A stretch of 64,000 nt of DNA from Pseudanabaena yagii GIHE-NHR1 (lineage in GTDB: Bacteria; Cyanobacteriota; Cyanobacteriia; Pseudanabaenales; Pseudanabaenaceae), in NCBI RefSeq assembly GCF_012863495.1, contig NZ_JAAVJL010000001.1, forward strand, positions 1,550,001 through 1,614,000, in the 5' to 3' direction. Numbering within the stretch: position 1 is the stretch's first letter; every line of letters starts with the position of its first letter. The position numbers and the translations under genes are program-made. The notes below the pieces were generated by a model, which had not been told where the DNA came from, did not search any database, and saw only the letters and a list, made by a program, of their open reading frames with translations. Shown piece by piece: positions 31,257-38,354 of this stretch.

Positions 31257-32636
31257 ATGGCTCAAGATCTGCTGTCTCAAATTTATAACGCTTTCGACCC
31301 ATTTCAGCCTTTGAAAGCTGGCGATCCTGCTTATGTGGATTTGCGATCGGTACGAGGAGATGGCGATGTTTTGACAGATTTGGGGCGGAGGGTAGATCTT
31401 GCCAAGGATAAAAAGACTTGTCAGTTATACACAGGACATCGAGGCGTTGGTAAATCGACAGAATTATTGCGTCTGCAAGAAGATTTGCGAAGTAAGGGCT
31501 ATTTTGTGGTTTATTTTGCAGCAGATAAGGAAGATATTGAGCCAGAAGATGTTGAATATACAGATGTTTTGTTGGCTTGTACGCGGCATATTCTCGAAGA
31601 ATTAAAAGATTGTGGTAATCCTGAAACTATTTTAGAGTGGGTGCGTGGAAGGCTCGTAGCATTTAAGGATGCCATTCCTGAATTGGAAGTAGACAAATTT
31701 AGTGCTGAAGCGACTGTTCCCAGTTTTGGCTGGATTCCTCAATTTGCAAAAATTACAGCAAGTTTACGGGCTGTCCCCAAAATCCGTCAAAAGCTGCGAA
31801 ATGAATTAGATGCTCATACGCCTAGCTTGGTAGAGGCGCTAAATACATTTATCAGAGATGCAAAGAAAAAACTTCCTGAACCTTGTGATGACATTGTGGT
31901 GATTGTTGACAACTTGGATCGGATTACCTATATCAAGCGCGATGAAACCCAAGGGAGTAACTATGATGAGATATTTATAGATCGCGTTGAGCAGCTAAAA
32001 TCCCTTGATTGTCATGTCATCTATACGATTCCGATCTCGATGGTTTACTCTACTAAGGCGACGATATTGGAAGATACCTATAAAAAGCCACAAGTATTAC
32101 CAATGATTATGGTCAAGGATCAGGATGGTAATGTGTATGAAGCGGGTTTAGCAAAAATGAAGGAGATTATTGCGAAGCGGATCGCGCAGATTAAAACTGA
32201 TGGAAATATTAGCAAGGCTTTGGCAAATGCTTTGGATTCCCAACTATTTGAGAATGTACAAACTTTGGATCAATTGTGTTTGATGAGTGGCGGGCATTCG
32301 CGGAATTTGATGCAATATATTCAAAAGGCGATCGAAAGGACTGAAAGGCTACCGATTAAATCCCTCGCTGTCAAACGTGCTATATCGGAAACGCGAGATA
32401 CTTATCGTAATGCGATCGAGCCGCTTCAGTGGGAGATTTTAGCGCAAGTCGCGAAATCTAAGCGTAAGCCCAATGATGATAAGCACAGCGTGTTGTTGCT
32501 CAATCGGTCGATTTTGGAATATTGCTATGTGGATGATGAGGGTGAAATGTGCCGTTGGTATGATATTCATCCTGTGATTTATGGTATCCAAGAATTTAAG
32601 GAAGCTTGGCAACGAATAACTGCACCAACTTCTTAG
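31257..32636 (+). CDS. P-loop ATPase of the STAND/AAA type, first gene of an accessory operon
   Basis: A 459-residue soluble P-loop ATPase. Walker A is 'GHRGVGKST' (about 60-68) and Walker B 'DIVVIVDNLDRI' (about 213-224). There is a sensor-like 'YTIPISMVYS' and a helical C-terminal part with a winged-helix-like tail ('ILEYCYVDDEGEMCRWYDIHPVIY'). The first 50 residues ('IYNAFDPFQPLKAGDPAYVDL') are the usual start of a cyanobacterial family placed next to TPR proteins (recall). It is separated by 25 bases from the giant TPR gene downstream, which suggests one operon and a physical partnership. The exact class (STAND or other AAA+) is not decided by eye. Confidence 0.8.
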   Translation: MAQDLLSQIYNAFDPFQPLKAGDPAYVDLRSVRGDGDVLTDLGRRVDLAKDKKTCQLYTGHRGVGKSTELLRLQEDLRSKGYFVVYFAADKEDIEPEDVEYTDVLLACTRHILEELKDCGNPETILEWVRGRLVAFKDAIPELEVDKFSAEATVPSFGWIPQFAKITASLRAVPKIRQKLRNELDAHTPSLVEALNTFIRDAKKKLPEPCDDIVVIVDNLDRITYIKRDETQGSNYDEIFIDRVEQLKSLDCHVIYTIPISMVYSTKATILEDTYKKPQVLPMIMVKDQDGNVYEAGLAKMKEIIAKRIAQIKTDGNISKALANALDSQLFENVQTLDQLCLMSGGHSRNLMQYIQKAIERTERLPIKSLAVKRAISETRDTYRNAIEPLQWEILAQVAKSKRKPNDDKHSVLLLNRSILEYCYVDDEGEMCRWYDIHPVIYGIQEFKEAWQRITAPTS

Positions 32637-32661
32637 ATAGCATCACTTAGAGGTATTAACG

Positions 32662-35600
32662 ATGCAATATCAATGGACAGAATGGGATGAAGATGTTGAG
32701 AGTACTCCCGATGAGGAGTATCAGTCTCTCGTGCGATCACTACAACGCAAAACGGGCTTTGGTTTGTTTTTTGTACGTTGCTCGCCTGTGGGTGGGCTGG
32801 AATTAATCGAGAGAGTTCGTGCAGATGTGTCACAAAAACAAGCCGATGTTTTGGAACTGAAGGAACCTATTGCAAATCTGATCGATCTGGTTACGGCTTT
32901 CCCGAATATTGATAACATCAAAATTTTATTTATAATAGGTTTAGAGAAGTCTATAGTTGAATATATTCGCACGGGCTATGGAGGACAAGGAGATTACTAC
33001 AATCTTGATACTGTGCCACCAATCCTCAGCCATCTCAATTGGCAACGCGAAAACTTTAAAGATAAATTTCGTCATCTCTGTTTTGTGTTTTTACTGCCAC
33101 GCTTTGCCATCAAATATATTATCCGCCGAGCACCTGATTTTTTTGATTGGGGATCTGGGAAGATTGATTTTCCGACTAGCAACAAGCTTTTAGAACAAGA
33201 ATCACAACGTATTGTATTTGAAGGAGACAAAGAAACATATTTAAACTGGAGTGTTAAAAAGCGTATAGAGAGAATTATCGAAATTGAAGAGTTACTGATT
33301 GAGCCAAATCAAACCTTAAACTATCAAGCATCTCTTCTCCTAGAAAAAGGAAATATCCTTTTAGCGAATAAGCAAGATGGAGAAGCTATAATTTCTTATG
33401 ACCAAGCATTAGAAATCAAGCCTGAATTCCATAAAGCATGGAACAATCGAGGCGTTGCACTAGGTAACTTAGGTAGATCTGAAGAAGCAATAGCTGCCTA
33501 TGATCAAGCCTTGCAAATCAGACCTGATGACAATAAAGCATGGTTTAACCGAGGTATTGAATTAGGGAATTTAGATAGATACGAAGAAGCGATCATTTCC
33601 TATGATAAGGCTTTGCAATTTGATTCTGAAAATCGTCAAATTTGGTACAACTTGGGTAATTCATTTTTGAGTTTAGGCAAATATAATGAGGCAAGTAAAT
33701 ATTGGGAAATAGCAACTTGTATTGAGAAACTAAAACTAAAGTTTGATGATTATGAAACTTGGAATAAAAAAGGCAATGCACTTTGGAATCTAGGTAGAAA
33801 TGAAGAAGCTCTTGAATCTTACAAAAAGGCTTTAGAGATTAATCCCAACTACGATAGTGCATGGAATAACCAAGGCAATGCACTTCAGAATCTAGGTAGA
33901 AATGAAGAAGCTCTTGAATCTTACAAAAAGGCTTTAGAAATTAATCCCAACTACGATAGCGCATGGAATGGTCAAGGTAATGCACTTCGGGATCTAGGTA
34001 GAAATGAAGAAGCTCTTGAATCTTATAAAAAGGCTTTAGAAATTAATCCTAACTATGATTATGCATGGAATGGTCAAGGTAATGCGCTTCGGGATCTAGG
34101 TAGAAATGAAGAAGCTCTTGAATCTTATAAAAAGGCTTTAGAAATTAATCCTAACTATGATTATGCATGGAATGGTCAAGGTAATGCGCTTCGGGATCTA
34201 GGTAGAAATGAAGAAGCTCTTGAATCTTATAAAAAGGCTTTAGAAATTAATCCTAACTATGATTATGCATGGAATGGTCAAGGTAATGCGCTATTTAACT
34301 TAGGGAAATACGAGGAAGCAATCTGCTCCTATGACCAAGCCCTAGCCATCAATCCGAAATATCACGAAGCATGGTACTACCGAAGCTATTCGTTAAAAAA
34401 TTTGGAAAAATACGAAGATGCGCTAATTTCTTTGGAAGAAGCAATTAAAATCAATCTTAATTGTAGCTACTTGTTCCAGAAAGGCGAAATCTTGAAAATT
34501 CTAGAAAGATACGAAGAAGCAATTCTTGCTTATAACCAAGCTACTAATATAAATTCTAGATGCTATTGTGCTTTACAAAGCCGCGCTGCAATCTTAGGTA
34601 ATCAAAATAGAGTAGAAGAAGCTATATTACCTTACAAAGAAATAACTGATATCAATCCTGACGACCACGACGCATGGTACAGAGGGGGCAATGTTCTATT
34701 TGATTTAGAAAAACATGAAAAAGCAGTCATCTTTTACGATCATGCTCTAGCCATCAAACCTGAATACCACGAAGCGTGGTACAACCAAGGAAATGCGCTA
34801 GGTAATTTAGGAAGACACGAAGAAGCAATCGCTTCCTATGAGAAAGCAGTCGAAATCAAACCTGACAAACACGAAGCATGGTATAACCGTGGCATTGCGA
34901 TGGGTAATTTAGGCAGATACGAAGAAGCGATCACTTCCTATGGGAAAGCCGTTGAAATCAAACCCGACAAACACGAAGCATGGTATAACCGTGGCATTGC
35001 GATGGGTAATTTAGGCAGATACGAAGAAGCGATCACTTCCTATGGGAAAGCCGTCAAAATCAAACCTGACAAACATGAAGCATGGTACAACCGAGGCGTT
35101 GCGCTAGTTAACTTAGGCAGATACGAAGAAGCAATCATTTCTTATGACAGAGCTATAGAAATCAACCCTGAAAACTACTTAGTATGGGCTGATCGAGGTG
35201 TAGCACTAGCTAACTTAAGCAGATACGAAGAAGCAATTATTTCCTGTGATCGTGCTATAGAAATCAACCCTGCAAACCACTTGGTATGGACTAATCGAGG
35301 TGCAGCACTATTTAACTTAGGCAGATACGAAGAAGCAATTATTTCCTGTGATCGTGCTATAGAAATCAACCCTAAAAACCACTTGGTATGGACTAATCGA
35401 GGTGCAGCACTATTTAACTTAAGCAGATACGAAGAAGCAATCATTTCCTATGACAGAGCTATAGAAATCAACCCTGCAAACTACTTAGTATGGGCTGATC
35501 GAGGTGTAGCACTAGCTAACTTAAGCAGATACGAAGAAGCAATTATTTCCTGTGATCGTGCTATAGAAATCAACCCTGCAAACCACTTGGTATGGACTAA

Positions 35601-36273
35601 TCGAGGTGCAGCACTAGTTAACTTAGGCAGATACGAAGAAGCAATTATTTCCTGTGATCGTGCTATAGAAATCAACCCTGCAAACCACTTGGTATGGACT
35701 AATCGAGGTGCAGCACTAGTTAACTCAGGCAGATACGAAGAAGCAATTATTTCCTGTGATCGTGCTATAGAAATAAACCCTGCAAACCACTTAGTATGGG
35801 CTGATCGAGGTGTAGCACTAGCTAACTTAAGCAGATACGAAGAAGCAATTATTTCCTGTGATCGTGCTATAGAAATCAACCCTGCAAACCACTTGGTATG
35901 GGCTGATCGAGGTGTAGCACTAGCTAACTTAAGCAGATATGAAGAAGCGATCGACGCTTTTGACAAGGCTTTAGAATTCAATCCTGACTTCCAACATGCA
36001 TGGGCTGAACGAGGCATTGCGCTAAGTAATTTAGGCAGATATGAAGAAGCAATCACCGCCTATGACAGAGCTATAGAAATCAACCCTGACGATCCAAATC
36101 CTTATTACAACAAAGCTTGTGCTTATTCTCTTCAAAACCAGATTGAACTTGCCTTAGAGAACCTCCAAAAAGCAATCCAACTCAATCTCGAAGAGTATCG
36201 TAGACTGGCAAAGACCGACTCAGATTTTGACAACGTCCGCCACGATCCACGCTTTCAAGCCTTGATACAATAG
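32662..36273 (+). CDS. Giant TPR protein with degenerate NTPase-like N-terminus
   Basis: A 1203-residue protein. Residues 1-205 form an alpha/beta domain ('GFGLFFVRCSPVGGLELIERVR', 'NIDNIKILFIIGLE', 'FCFVFLLPRFAIKYIIRRAPDFFDW'-like strands). It resembles inactivated STAND-type NTPase domains because the alpha/beta order is kept but no Walker A Gly-Lys-Thr is present. Residues 218-1190 hold about 28 TPR units of 34 residues. Units 5-10 and 18-25 are nearly identical at DNA level (102-bp period), so they were amplified recently. TPR superhelices bind peptide ligands. The gene sits directly after the ATPase gene and 11 bases before an antitoxin gene. A sensor or scaffold role for the ATPase is inferred. 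Confidence 0.85.
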   Translation: MQYQWTEWDEDVESTPDEEYQSLVRSLQRKTGFGLFFVRCSPVGGLELIERVRADVSQKQADVLELKEPIANLIDLVTAFPNIDNIKILFIIGLEKSIVEYIRTGYGGQGDYYNLDTVPPILSHLNWQRENFKDKFRHLCFVFLLPRFAIKYIIRRAPDFFDWGSGKIDFPTSNKLLEQESQRIVFEGDKETYLNWSVKKRIERIIEIEELLIEPNQTLNYQASLLLEKGNILLANKQDGEAIISYDQALEIKPEFHKAWNNRGVALGNLGRSEEAIAAYDQALQIRPDDNKAWFNRGIELGNLDRYEEAIISYDKALQFDSENRQIWYNLGNSFLSLGKYNEASKYWEIATCIEKLKLKFDDYETWNKKGNALWNLGRNEEALESYKKALEINPNYDSAWNNQGNALQNLGRNEEALESYKKALEINPNYDSAWNGQGNALRDLGRNEEALESYKKALEINPNYDYAWNGQGNALRDLGRNEEALESYKKALEINPNYDYAWNGQGNALRDLGRNEEALESYKKALEINPNYDYAWNGQGNALFNLGKYEEAICSYDQALAINPKYHEAWYYRSYSLKNLEKYEDALISLEEAIKINLNCSYLFQKGEILKILERYEEAILAYNQATNINSRCYCALQSRAAILGNQNRVEEAILPYKEITDINPDDHDAWYRGGNVLFDLEKHEKAVIFYDHALAIKPEYHEAWYNQGNALGNLGRHEEAIASYEKAVEIKPDKHEAWYNRGIAMGNLGRYEEAITSYGKAVEIKPDKHEAWYNRGIAMGNLGRYEEAITSYGKAVKIKPDKHEAWYNRGVALVNLGRYEEAIISYDRAIEINPENYLVWADRGVALANLSRYEEAIISCDRAIEINPANHLVWTNRGAALFNLGRYEEAIISCDRAIEINPKNHLVWTNRGAALFNLSRYEEAIISYDRAIEINPANYLVWADRGVALANLSRYEEAIISCDRAIEINPANHLVWTNRGAALVNLGRYEEAIISCDRAIEINPANHLVWTNRGAALVNSGRYEEAIISCDRAIEINPANHLVWADRGVALANLSRYEEAIISCDRAIEINPANHLVWADRGVALANLSRYEEAIDAFDKALEFNPDFQHAWAERGIALSNLGRYEEAITAYDRAIEINPDDPNPYYNKACAYSLQNQIELALENLQKAIQLNLEEYRRLAKTDSDFDNVRHDPRFQALIQ
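33780..34290 (+). repeat. Homogenised 102-bp TPR repeat block 1
   Basis: Consecutive 102-base units inside the TPR gene, with at least three copies (about 34000-34290) almost base-for-base identical. They encode units with 'LGRNEEALESYKKALEINP'. The conservation extends to synonymous sites, which indicates recent duplication or gene conversion. Confidence 0.85.
35090..35945 (+). repeat. Homogenised 102-bp TPR repeat block 2
   Basis: Eight or so consecutive 102-base units encode 'RYEEAIISCDRAIEINPAN'-type TPRs. Two alternating subtypes appear (WADRGVALANLS and WTNRGAALVNLG). The low codon drift leaves long open frames on the opposite strand, which are artefacts. Confidence 0.85.
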
Positions 36274-36284
36274 GAGAAAACACC

Positions 36285-36545
36285 ATGACTACCCTACTCG
36301 AACAAGCCTTTACCGCCGCTACTCAACTCCCCCAAGAGAGACAAGACCAACTAGCACAACTAATCCTGCAAGAAATTTCCCGACCACAGCATCAACAAGT
36401 CAATAAAGCACCCACACAAAAAAGTCCTCTCCAAATATTTACAGAACTCGGCTTAGTTGGATGTTTTGAAGGAGAACCCGATCTCTCAGCTAACTACAAA
36501 TCCGTAGTCAAATCCTACATTCTCAAAAAACATGATCATCATTGA
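36285..36545 (+). CDS. Antitoxin-like protein of a PIN toxin pair
   Basis: An 86-residue protein. The N-terminal amphipathic helices ('LEQAFTAATQLPQERQDQLAQLILQEI') are of a type common in antitoxins paired with PIN toxins in cyanobacteria. The C-terminal part is flexible and should wrap around the toxin ('LGLVGCFEGEPDLSANYK'). It overlaps the PIN gene by 14 bases, the classical arrangement of toxin-antitoxin pairs. AGGAG lies 9 bases before the ATG. It starts 11 bases after the TPR gene, which suggests it shares that operon. The DNA-binding mode is not visible. Confidence 0.75.
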   Translation: MTTLLEQAFTAATQLPQERQDQLAQLILQEISRPQHQQVNKAPTQKSPLQIFTELGLVGCFEGEPDLSANYKSVVKSYILKKHDHH

Positions 36546-36939
36546 TACAGGAGCCTTTGTCGCACTTTTCAATCGCCGCGATTCTGCCCATTTAGCAGCC
36601 CAAAGAGCCTTTGAAACAATCCAAGAACCAATGATTACGACATTCCCTGTCATCACGGAAACCTGTTACTTCCTAGCCGCAACAGCCAGCCACACCGCTC
36701 AATCCAACTTTCTTAAAAGCTTTGTCTTAGGAGCCTTTCAAATATTCGACCTTGAACCAAATCACATCGATCGCATGATCGTTCTCATGGAAAAATACGC
36801 AGATCTCCCAATGGATATGGCAGATGCCTCCTTAGTCGTTTTAGCAGAGCAGTTCAGTGGACGCATATTGACCGTCGATCGCCGTGATTTCTCTGTCTAT
36901 CGTTGGAACAATAAACCCTTTGAGAACCTTTTGATTTAG
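36532..36939 (+). CDS. PIN-domain ribonuclease toxin (VapC-like)
   Basis: A 135-residue PIN domain. The acidic quartet is visible: D5 in 'IIIDTGAFVALF', Glu in 'VITETCYFL' (about 44), Asp pair in 'DMADASLVVLAEQ' (about 99-102) and Asp in 'ILTVDRRDF' (about 116-119). VapC-type toxins cleave tRNA or rRNA with Mg2+ and are held in check by the upstream antitoxin. Length and gene order are typical. It is the last gene in the ATPase-TPR series before a duplicated leader. Confidence 0.88.
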   Translation: MIIIDTGAFVALFNRRDSAHLAAQRAFETIQEPMITTFPVITETCYFLAATASHTAQSNFLKSFVLGAFQIFDLEPNHIDRMIVLMEKYADLPMDMADASLVVLAEQFSGRILTVDRRDFSVYRWNNKPFENLLI

Positions 36940-36952
36940 CAATTATCCCCAT

Positions 36953-36980
36953 TTTCAAGCCTTGATACAATAGGAGAAAA
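36953..36980 (+). repeat. Duplicated leader, second copy (first at 36253-36280)
   Basis: The 28 bases TTTCAAGCCTTGATACAA + TAGGAGAAAA are identical at 36253-36280 and here, exactly 700 bases apart. The first copy is the end of the TPR gene plus the antitoxin ribosome site. Here they have been copied in front of another antitoxin-like gene. Confidence 0.9.
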
Positions 36981-36985
36981 ACACC

Positions 36986-37219
36986 ATGATTACAACTACA
37001 GAAATCCTCCAAACCATTCCCAAACTATCTCAAGAAGACTGCTTCCAAATCGCAGAAATACTTTTACAAAGACTACTAACTCAAACAAAACCTACCCGCA
37101 CCCAAATCAACCAACAGCTAAAAATCGCCGCCTTACTTGCCGTTGATGACTACATCAACGATCCAGAACTAACAGCCCTAACTGCCCTTGATGGCGAGGA
37201 CTTTTACAAATATGAATAG
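36986..37219 (+). CDS. Second antitoxin-like protein, without partner
   Basis: A 77-residue protein with N-terminal helices ('TTEILQTIPKLSQEDCFQIAEILLQRLL') of antitoxin style and an acidic C-terminus ('LTALTALDGEDFYKYE'). It uses a duplicated copy of the leader of the first antitoxin. A toxin gene would be expected next, but the IS630 element begins 15 bases after its stop. It is either an orphan antitoxin or the left partner of a disrupted pair. I do not recognise the family precisely. Confidence 0.6.
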   Translation: MITTTEILQTIPKLSQEDCFQIAEILLQRLLTQTKPTRTQINQQLKIAALLAVDDYINDPELTALTALDGEDFYKYE

Positions 37220-37233
37220 AGGTGAAATCTGGC

Positions 37234-38354
37234 TATACCTTGACAGGGGGTAGACTTTATTTTTCATAAGAGTAAAGATGGAAGAAACGTTAACTTTTCT
37301 CCAAGATGCTCCGAATAACATTTACCAAGGAAGAAATAGATGCGCTGCATTACGAAAGATTCCATCATCCGCATCCACGAGTGCAGAGAAAAATGGAAGC
37401 ACTATACCTAAAAAGCCAGAAATACGCGCACAAGGAAATTACACAACTGCTAAGAATCAGTGAACCGACACTGTTGAACTATTTACGAGATTATAAAGAA
37501 GGTGGGATAAGCAAACTGAAAGAACTGACCTTTAATCGCCCCCAGAGTGAACTAAAACAGCATCAAGAAAGTTTAGAGATATATTTTCGAGAACATCCAC
37601 CTAAAACGCTGGCTCATGCAGCAGCAAAAATTACTGAGTTGACAGGGATTGTCCGTAGTCGAGAACAGGTGCGTCATTTCCTGAAATCGATGGGAATGAG
37701 TTGTCGTCGAGTGGGGCTAATACCTGCAAAGGCTGACCCAGCAGCACAAGAGGAATTTCTTAAAAAAAACTAGAACCGCGCTTAGAGGAAGCTAAATCTG
37801 GACAAAGAGCCGTTTTCTTTGTTGATGCTGCTCACTTTGTCCTTGGAGCCTATTTAGGCTTTTTGTGGTGTTTTGAACGCTTGTTTCTTAAATCTGGGTC
37901 GGGAAGGCAGCGTTTTAATGTCCTCGGTGCACTTAATGCTGTTACTCATGAGTTGATTACTGTGACTAATGATTCTTACATCAATGCTCAAAGTGTTTGT
38001 GACTTACTCCACAAACTTGCGGCTTTGGGTTTGACTATACCCATTACTCTTGTCTTGGATAATGCTCGTTATCAAAAGTGTGTTTTAGTTTTTGAGTTGG
38101 CTCAGTCATTAAATATCGAGCTTCTTTATTTGACTACTTACTCTCCAAACTTAAACTTGATTGAGCGTCTTTGGAAATTTGTGAAGAAACAGTGTCTCTA
38201 CTCCGTCTATTACCCTGATTTTGATTCTTTCAAGTTTGCTATTGCTTCTTGCCTTGAGAATTCCCGCACTACTCATAAAGCAGCTTTGGATTCTTTATTG
38301 ACTTTGCGCTTTCAGTCTTTTGATAATGTTAAGTCTATTCCCTGTTAAGGTATA
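37234..38354 (+). mobile_element. IS630-family insertion sequence
   Basis: The left end reads TATACCTTGACAGGGGGTAG and the right end reads (complement) TATACCTTAACAGGGAATAG, imperfect terminal inverted repeats of about 24 bp. TA lies on both outer sides, as IS630/Tc1 elements duplicate TA. The internal transposase has a -1 frameshift at an A8 run. The left neighbour is an antitoxin-like gene and the right neighbour a sterol-desaturase-like gene that the element truncates. Confidence 0.88.
37306..38348 (+). CDS. IS630-family transposase made by -1 frameshift
   Basis: Frame 1 (37306-37773) encodes the helix-turn-helix half ('HKEITQLLRISEPTLLNYLRDYKEGG') and stops at TAG right after a run of eight A (37762-37769). 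Shifting back one base at this run joins it, without loss, to the catalytic half: 'RAVFFVDAAHFVLG' (first Asp), 'ITLVLDNARYQK' (second Asp) and 'SPNLNLIERLWKFVKK' (Glu). The combined length of about 345 residues fits IS630. The A8 run makes programmed frameshifting more likely than random damage. The visible start is ATG at 37306. Confidence 0.88.

Follow-up and report, generated by a model that had tools for sequence, protein, structure and literature searches.

A conserved STAND-like ATPase-TPR gene pair in Cyanobacteria with an exchangeable toxin-antitoxin cassette at its 3' end

RESULTS

Two units of different age in one compact run of genes

Four closely spaced genes of Pseudanabaena yagii GIHE-NHR1 make up two units that differ in age: a conserved pair, formed by an ATPase gene and a TPR gene, and a toxin-antitoxin (TA) cassette. 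They lie in the window, by which we mean the whole 64,000-nucleotide stretch of DNA analyzed here (NZ_JAAVJL010000001.1, positions 1,550,001 to 1,614,000), in a 5.57-Mb cyanobacterial genome of the Pseudanabaena group. A sequence-only reading of the window had described four same-strand open reading frames (ORFs) spaced by 25, 11, and −14 bases, and both coordinates and spacing proved exact on re-check. The features are as follows, in window positions, with the basis of each call in parentheses; other loci and genomes are cited below by L and G numbers.

31257-32636, + strand: ATPase ORF, 459 aa (ORF list); Orc/STAND-like P-loop ATPase with a C-terminal winged-helix-like region (motifs, Pfam, AlphaFold2 model)
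32662-36273, + strand: partner TPR ORF, 1,203 aa (ORF list)
32662-33276, + strand: N-domain of the partner, residues 1 to 205, predicted AAA+-like fold without Walker A; conserved G93, N126, R129, D159, F160, and W163 (AlphaFold2, Foldseek, alignment)
33300-36102, + strand: TPR array of about 26 to 27 units (domain search, DNA repeats)
36103-36273, + strand: TPR end-of-group domain (NF047558), C terminus ...DPRFQALIQ and stop (domain search)
36285-36545, + strand: antitoxin-like gene of the PIN toxin, 86 aa, without a Pfam match (ORF list, Pfam)
36532-36939, + strand: PIN-domain (VapC-like) toxin, 135 aa (Pfam)

The ATPase and TPR genes are a conserved pair

The ATPase carries a Walker A motif (GHRGVGKST, residues 60 to 68), a Walker-B-like VVIVDNLDR (VIVDNLDR at about residues 215 to 222), and GGHxR at residues 345 to 349; R308 and R349 are conserved. 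Its winged helix was read from secondary structure alone. The AlphaFold2 model (pLDDT 91.6) had its best PDB fold matches in Cdc6/ORC, archaeal SSO1545/PABY2304-type ATPases, and RdrA. Among 33 members of the family, Pfam matches were to AAA_16 (32 members), KAP (21), ATPase_2 (20), nSTAND5 (16), and NACHT (5), which, judged on sequence matches, places the family in the STAND/Orc neighborhood between these five. The window ATPase itself fell under every Pfam cut-off, and the threshold of no curated STAND family was reached. Since it lies below all cut-offs and its family is near AAA_16, KAP, and nSTAND5, we call it STAND-like and assign it to no named STAND family.

Fifty-seven full-length ATPases, from species-level, mutually related genomes, lay on GTDB contigs that continued for 800 bp or more past the gene. 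For 47 of them, an N-domain gene began no more than 800 bp further downstream on the same strand, which bears out the proposal that the two genes belong together. For 5 of the other 10 (L132, L134, L191, L198, and L204), the N-domain gene lay 1 to 2.4 kb downstream. In a set of 81 deduplicated pairs, four ATPase clades corresponded 1:1 to four N-domain clades, with 56, 19, 3, and 3 pairs, and the two proteins were strongly correlated (Mantel r = 0.908, partly inflated by common species history; 0 of 999 permutations as high). All four clades are represented in the window genome, by a single pair each (the window locus, L059, L060, and L062). Because these four pairs are paralogues within one genome, the 1:1 match is not an effect of the species tree alone. 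The P-loop that the earlier reading had called good was present as Walker A in all 81 ATPases, and a Walker B of the hhhhDxLD type was present in 78. Gene order and clade structure mark the two genes as an ancient pair conserved in Cyanobacteria; in filamentous species, the ATPase gene nearly always has the partner gene next to it.

The pair is chromosomal, occurs in several copies per genome, and is widespread, with a patchy distribution, in larger-genome cyanobacteria. Of 244 genomes searched across the phylum, 61 encode the N-domain, and a whole-genome search recovered ATPase homologues in 37 of 58 relatives; plasmid-borne homologues exist. Unpaired genes also occur, both ATPases (L061, L065, L076, and L078) and N-domain genes (L129 and L130). 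We found no description of the pair in the open-access literature. ATPase homologues were also seen in three non-cyanobacterial bins (L190, L196, and L181; Chloroflexi, Acidobacteria, and Chromatiaceae); L196 has the N-domain partner as well, which suggests transfer or a broader range.

Relatives carry candidate output domains

Several relatives of the pair are joined to domains that could act as its output. In Okeania, a fusion of N-domain, TPRs, and CHAT protease adjoins the ATPase (L162, 5293-9198; CHAT E value, 2.4e-54). One genus-mate carries the ATPase as a fusion with EAD1 and a PtuA-type ATPase, and PtuB comes next (L077, 7482-11413, − strand); this locus is a Septu-like system with a STAND-like switch added. 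In Iningainema, the ATPase is followed by a free-standing N-domain and then by a TPR protein with a C-terminal SpoIIE phosphatase domain, a possible phosphatase output (L131, 4408-8460). By analogy with the CHAT and EAD1-PtuA relatives, a conflict function of the pair is plausible. To that extent the conflict role put forward by the sequence-only reading remains plausible for the pair; the PIN protein as effector, treated below, is not supported.

Alternatively, the pair might be a general signaling or assembly module, for example an environmental or developmental one comparable to regulatory STAND proteins, and no conflict system. We regard this account as possible, though not as the one to be expected. 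It accords with the chromosomal location, the multiple copies per genome, and the breadth of the N-domain across the phylum, and with the SpoIIE-type phosphatase protein behind one relative. The ATPase had no match in the phage collection, and PADLOC returned only a weak PDC-S20 match, with no strong match to a standard defense model, as would also be expected of such a module. The fusions to CHAT and EAD1-PtuA, however, point the other way, and the patchy distribution, plasmid-borne homologues, and repeat-array expansion (below) fit a fast-evolving accessory system.

The partner N-domain has a predicted AAA+-like fold and no Walker A

Residues 1 to 205 of the partner match no Pfam family. AlphaFold2, run on a 23-sequence alignment, predicted an alpha/beta fold with a beta-alpha series (mean pLDDT 82.9). 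Its best Foldseek matches in the PDB were the AAA+ superfamily proteins Hda, Rif2, ORC, and FtsH (best E value, 1.6e-4; probability 1.0), at a low TM-score of 0.35 to 0.41. Sequence similarity to AAA+ families was not found, and PDB searches with the single protein and with profiles gave nothing decisive. Because hhalign found no sequence similarity to the ATPase either (probability about 1 percent), the kinship of N-domain and ATPase is one of predicted fold. The motif GxxxxGK[ST] occurred in 0 of 81 N-domains versus all 81 ATPases. Across the 81 N-domains, conservation was highest at G93 (100%), R129 and D159 (98% each), N126 (96%), and G32 and W163 (95% each).

From the models, then, the N-domain likely has an AAA+-like fold. 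The sequence-only reading had proposed a P-loop-like alpha/beta fold that lacks Walker A and had likened it to inactive STAND-like domains described in such conflict systems as have been predicted: the loss of Walker A is confirmed, the resemblance to such domains was well seen, and the fold itself is likely on the Foldseek matches, if tempered by their low TM-scores and by the hhalign result. We think it improbable that the N-domain is instead an unrelated alpha/beta domain, such as a receiver-like or Rossmann-like one, and the pair a chaperone or scaffold. The low TM-scores and the lack of sequence similarity to AAA+ families would suit this explanation, but the top 50 Foldseek matches are almost entirely AAA+ proteins with probability near 1, the ORC relative Rif2 among them, and two conserved elements speak against it, a G-L-E past beta-3 and R129 in the helix preceding beta-4.

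The N-domain is a discrete module, since at L131 and L133 a short gene of its own, flanked by the genes for the ATPase and a TPR protein, encodes it. Three clades have TPRs after the N-domain; in the fourth, the partner is a very long WD40 protein (with an nSTAND1 domain in L064). Partner lengths vary widely across the 81 pairs. In the window, the array DNA consists of 102-bp repeats, one block of which (5.1 copies, 95% matched) points, on the repeat sequence, to recent expansion of the TPR array. Near-identical repeats and variable length fit a sensor under diversifying change; such variation in repeats and length is common to TPR genes generally. At one locus of G021 (L054, 9047-11425, − strand), an unrelated 200-aa protein substitutes for the N-domain and most of the TPRs, the TPR end and TA units are kept, and the ATPase is extended at its C terminus.

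The toxin-antitoxin genes are an exchangeable cassette

The following features bound or follow the TA genes of the window.

36256-36276, + strand: core repeat copy 1, CAAGCCTTGATACAATAGGAG, made up of the last TPR codons, the stop, and the antitoxin Shine-Dalgarno (repeat search)
36956-36976, + strand: core repeat copy 2, exactly 700 bp from copy 1, ending the antitoxin-PIN cassette (repeat search)
36986-37219, + strand: second antitoxin-like gene, 77 aa, recurring in genus-mates at similar junctions (ORF comparison)
37212-37253, + strand: start of a MazF-like gene (MNRGEIWL...), truncated by an insertion sequence (IS) element (comparison with genus-mate ORFs)
37306-38348, + strand: IS630-type transposase in two frames, 37306-37773 and 37863-38348 (ORF list)

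Pfam confirms the PIN domain (PF01850; E value, 5e-13). With 25 PIN matches in the genome, however, a PIN gene beside any operon is unsurprising by itself. Direct copies of the core repeat flank the antitoxin-PIN pair, yielding the 700-bp unit. The genome has the repeat a third time, where a different STAND-TPR gene ends and a MazEF-type pair follows (L128, 2716-6894; G000:C1, about 2324.7-2328.9 kb). With up to 3 mismatches allowed, the repeat occurred in 17 of the 26 genomes searched from the genus (reversed-pattern control, 0), at the ends of TPR genes or between TA modules. The IS630-type element that interrupts the MazF-like start in the window has a second genomic copy of its transposase in L128.

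Comparison among relatives showed the slot between the repeats empty, filled, or filled differently. At L042, L051, L057, L121, and L123, the TPR end and core repeat are followed directly by the second antitoxin. Sister strains (L041, L043, L053, and L054) carry MazF-type or different VapC pairs in the slot, and L120 (2959-8051) is an array of several TA units, including MazF, PIN, an MNT-type nucleotidyltransferase, and DUF433/DUF5615 (toxin families assigned partly by eye, DUF5615 by domain search). PIN copies stand behind STAND-TPR or other TPR genes at L126 and L120. Identity to the PIN protein of the window is 95% for the G008 copy and 96% for that of G021; the ATPases of these two genomes are only 54% and 43% identical to the window ATPase. 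In G013 and G004 the PIN identity is 96 to 97%, and the gene stands behind TPR genes with no such ATPase alongside. Because PIN is near-identical despite diverged or absent ATPases, the TA pair has its own history. On these comparisons, the antitoxin-PIN pair is an interchangeable passenger cassette. PIN as the effector of the pair was rejected on three counts, the empty sites, the cassette exchange, and the unequal divergence, and from the same sequences a dedicated effector role is very unlikely.

TA arrays split by a 21- to 65-bp repeat derived from TPR 3' ends were seen in the window and at L120, L040, L043, L053, L054, and L121 to L128. The cassette had no match in the plasmid collection, and a search of the open-access literature turned up no report of TA cassettes placed at the ends of TPR genes.

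In some other genera, too, TA genes stand behind the partner (L146/L149/L152, L154, L163, L145, and L073), at a few of these loci as recognized by Pfam. A comparison by eye of downstream genes with upstream controls, across non-independent loci, was suggestive of TA enrichment behind the pair, which may thus be loosely linked in function to toxins. By a wide margin, most other cyanobacterial loci have no TA genes behind the pair.

A single four-gene conflict operon, in which the ATPase and TPR protein detect an invader and free the PIN ribonuclease from its antitoxin, was what the sequence-only reading had proposed; it is strongly disfavored and highly improbable, because the shared strand and tight gaps, a strong Shine-Dalgarno overlapping the TPR stop, a recurrence of the four-gene order in one other genome alone (L040 of G008, with a second antitoxin added), and the few TA genes in other genera are outweighed by pair loci that mostly have no TA genes behind them, by PIN cassettes behind TPR genes that lack this ATPase (L120 and L126), by other toxins in the same slot, and by precise empty sites. 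Compact operons can mislead: in this genus, TA units landing behind TPR genes mimic four-gene operons.

DISCUSSION

A proposed split switch and a passenger cassette

On balance, we favor a reading in which the pair is a STAND-type switch split over two genes and the TA genes are a VapBC-like passenger cassette that entered by recombination at repeats. The ATPase, with its active P-loop and winged-helix end, and the dead AAA+-like N-domain of the partner would probably assemble as a mixed oligomer, in which the N-domain may lend an arginine or another contact to the ATPase. A ligand or scaffold would be bound by the TPRs, or by WD40 propellers in the sister clade, and binding would shift the state of the ATPase and uncover an output. 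In relatives this output may be a fused protease or a separate signaling protein; the window copy shows no output domain. An ordinary VapBC-like module would have arrived as the 700-bp cassette through recombination at the short repeat at the 3' end of the TPR gene. It is possibly cotranscribed with the pair and would not be a dedicated effector.

A bolder version is that such pairs form a cyanobacterial family of immune receptors of a split STAND type, where a dead AAA+ domain bearing the sensor completes the Orc-like ATPase in trans, and that TPR 3' ends are docking sites for TA outputs swapped by an undescribed repeat-directed process. To this we would give little credence. On the favored reading, the pair is a widespread, multicopy, unannotated two-gene module of Cyanobacteria with a testable mechanism and exchangeable TPR or WD40 sensors.

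Comparison with known systems

The nearest description that we found is the nSTAND2 two-gene counter-invader system, with the iSTAND ternary systems next. In the former, active and eroded STAND genes are adjacent, a mixed ring is predicted (Kaur et al. 2021, PMC8195603, Fig. 6C), and the eroded gene is fused to a variable module, with GT4 or HEPN effectors (PMC8195603). Here too, active and eroded ATPase genes are neighbors, the N-domain fold being a prediction. The nSTAND2 arginine finger is present in both proteins; in our pair, R129 of the N-domain and R308 and R349 of the ATPase are candidate residues for such a role. Unlike nSTAND2 systems, the variable part is TPR or WD40, with CHAT in one relative and no GT4 or HEPN, neither protein has a reported nSTAND2 match, and the pair is concentrated in Cyanobacteria.

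The iSTAND and iSTAND2 ternary systems, which occur in cyanobacteria, have an inactive STAND-like domain in the predicted sensing component (Kaur et al. 2020, PMC7159879; 2021), a likeness to the partner described here, and require a MoxR-vWA couple (PMC7159879). Membership was rejected: no AAA_5/MoxR match lies near the locus, the nearest being about 25 kb away. The pair is thus a member of neither group, and it differs from nSTAND2 in its variable modules. With classical STAND NTPases (NACHT, AP-ATPase, Avs, and nSTAND1) it shares a switch ATPase coupled to a TPR or WD40 repeat sensor, but here switch and sensor are separate genes, and the sensor bears its own dead ATPase-like domain. The link to Septu (PtuA/PtuB) runs through L077, where the ATPase homologue is fused to EAD1-PtuA with PtuB behind; the window locus, in contrast, has neither PtuA nor PtuB.

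The TA genes resemble VapBC modules in that the antitoxin-like gene overlaps the PIN gene by 14 bp and the toxin belongs to PF01850. They differ in lying between repeats, as a cassette, where a TPR gene ends and in an antitoxin that has no Pfam family; their TA activity is predicted. Like integron cassette arrays, the arrays consist of exchangeable TA units with a shared repeat between them, but that repeat is a 21- to 65-bp coding and Shine-Dalgarno sequence, its core is not visibly palindromic, and it has no obvious attC; nor was an integrase noticed next to the arrays. The cassette arrays of this genus offer a natural system for studying the intrachromosomal spread of TA modules without integrons.
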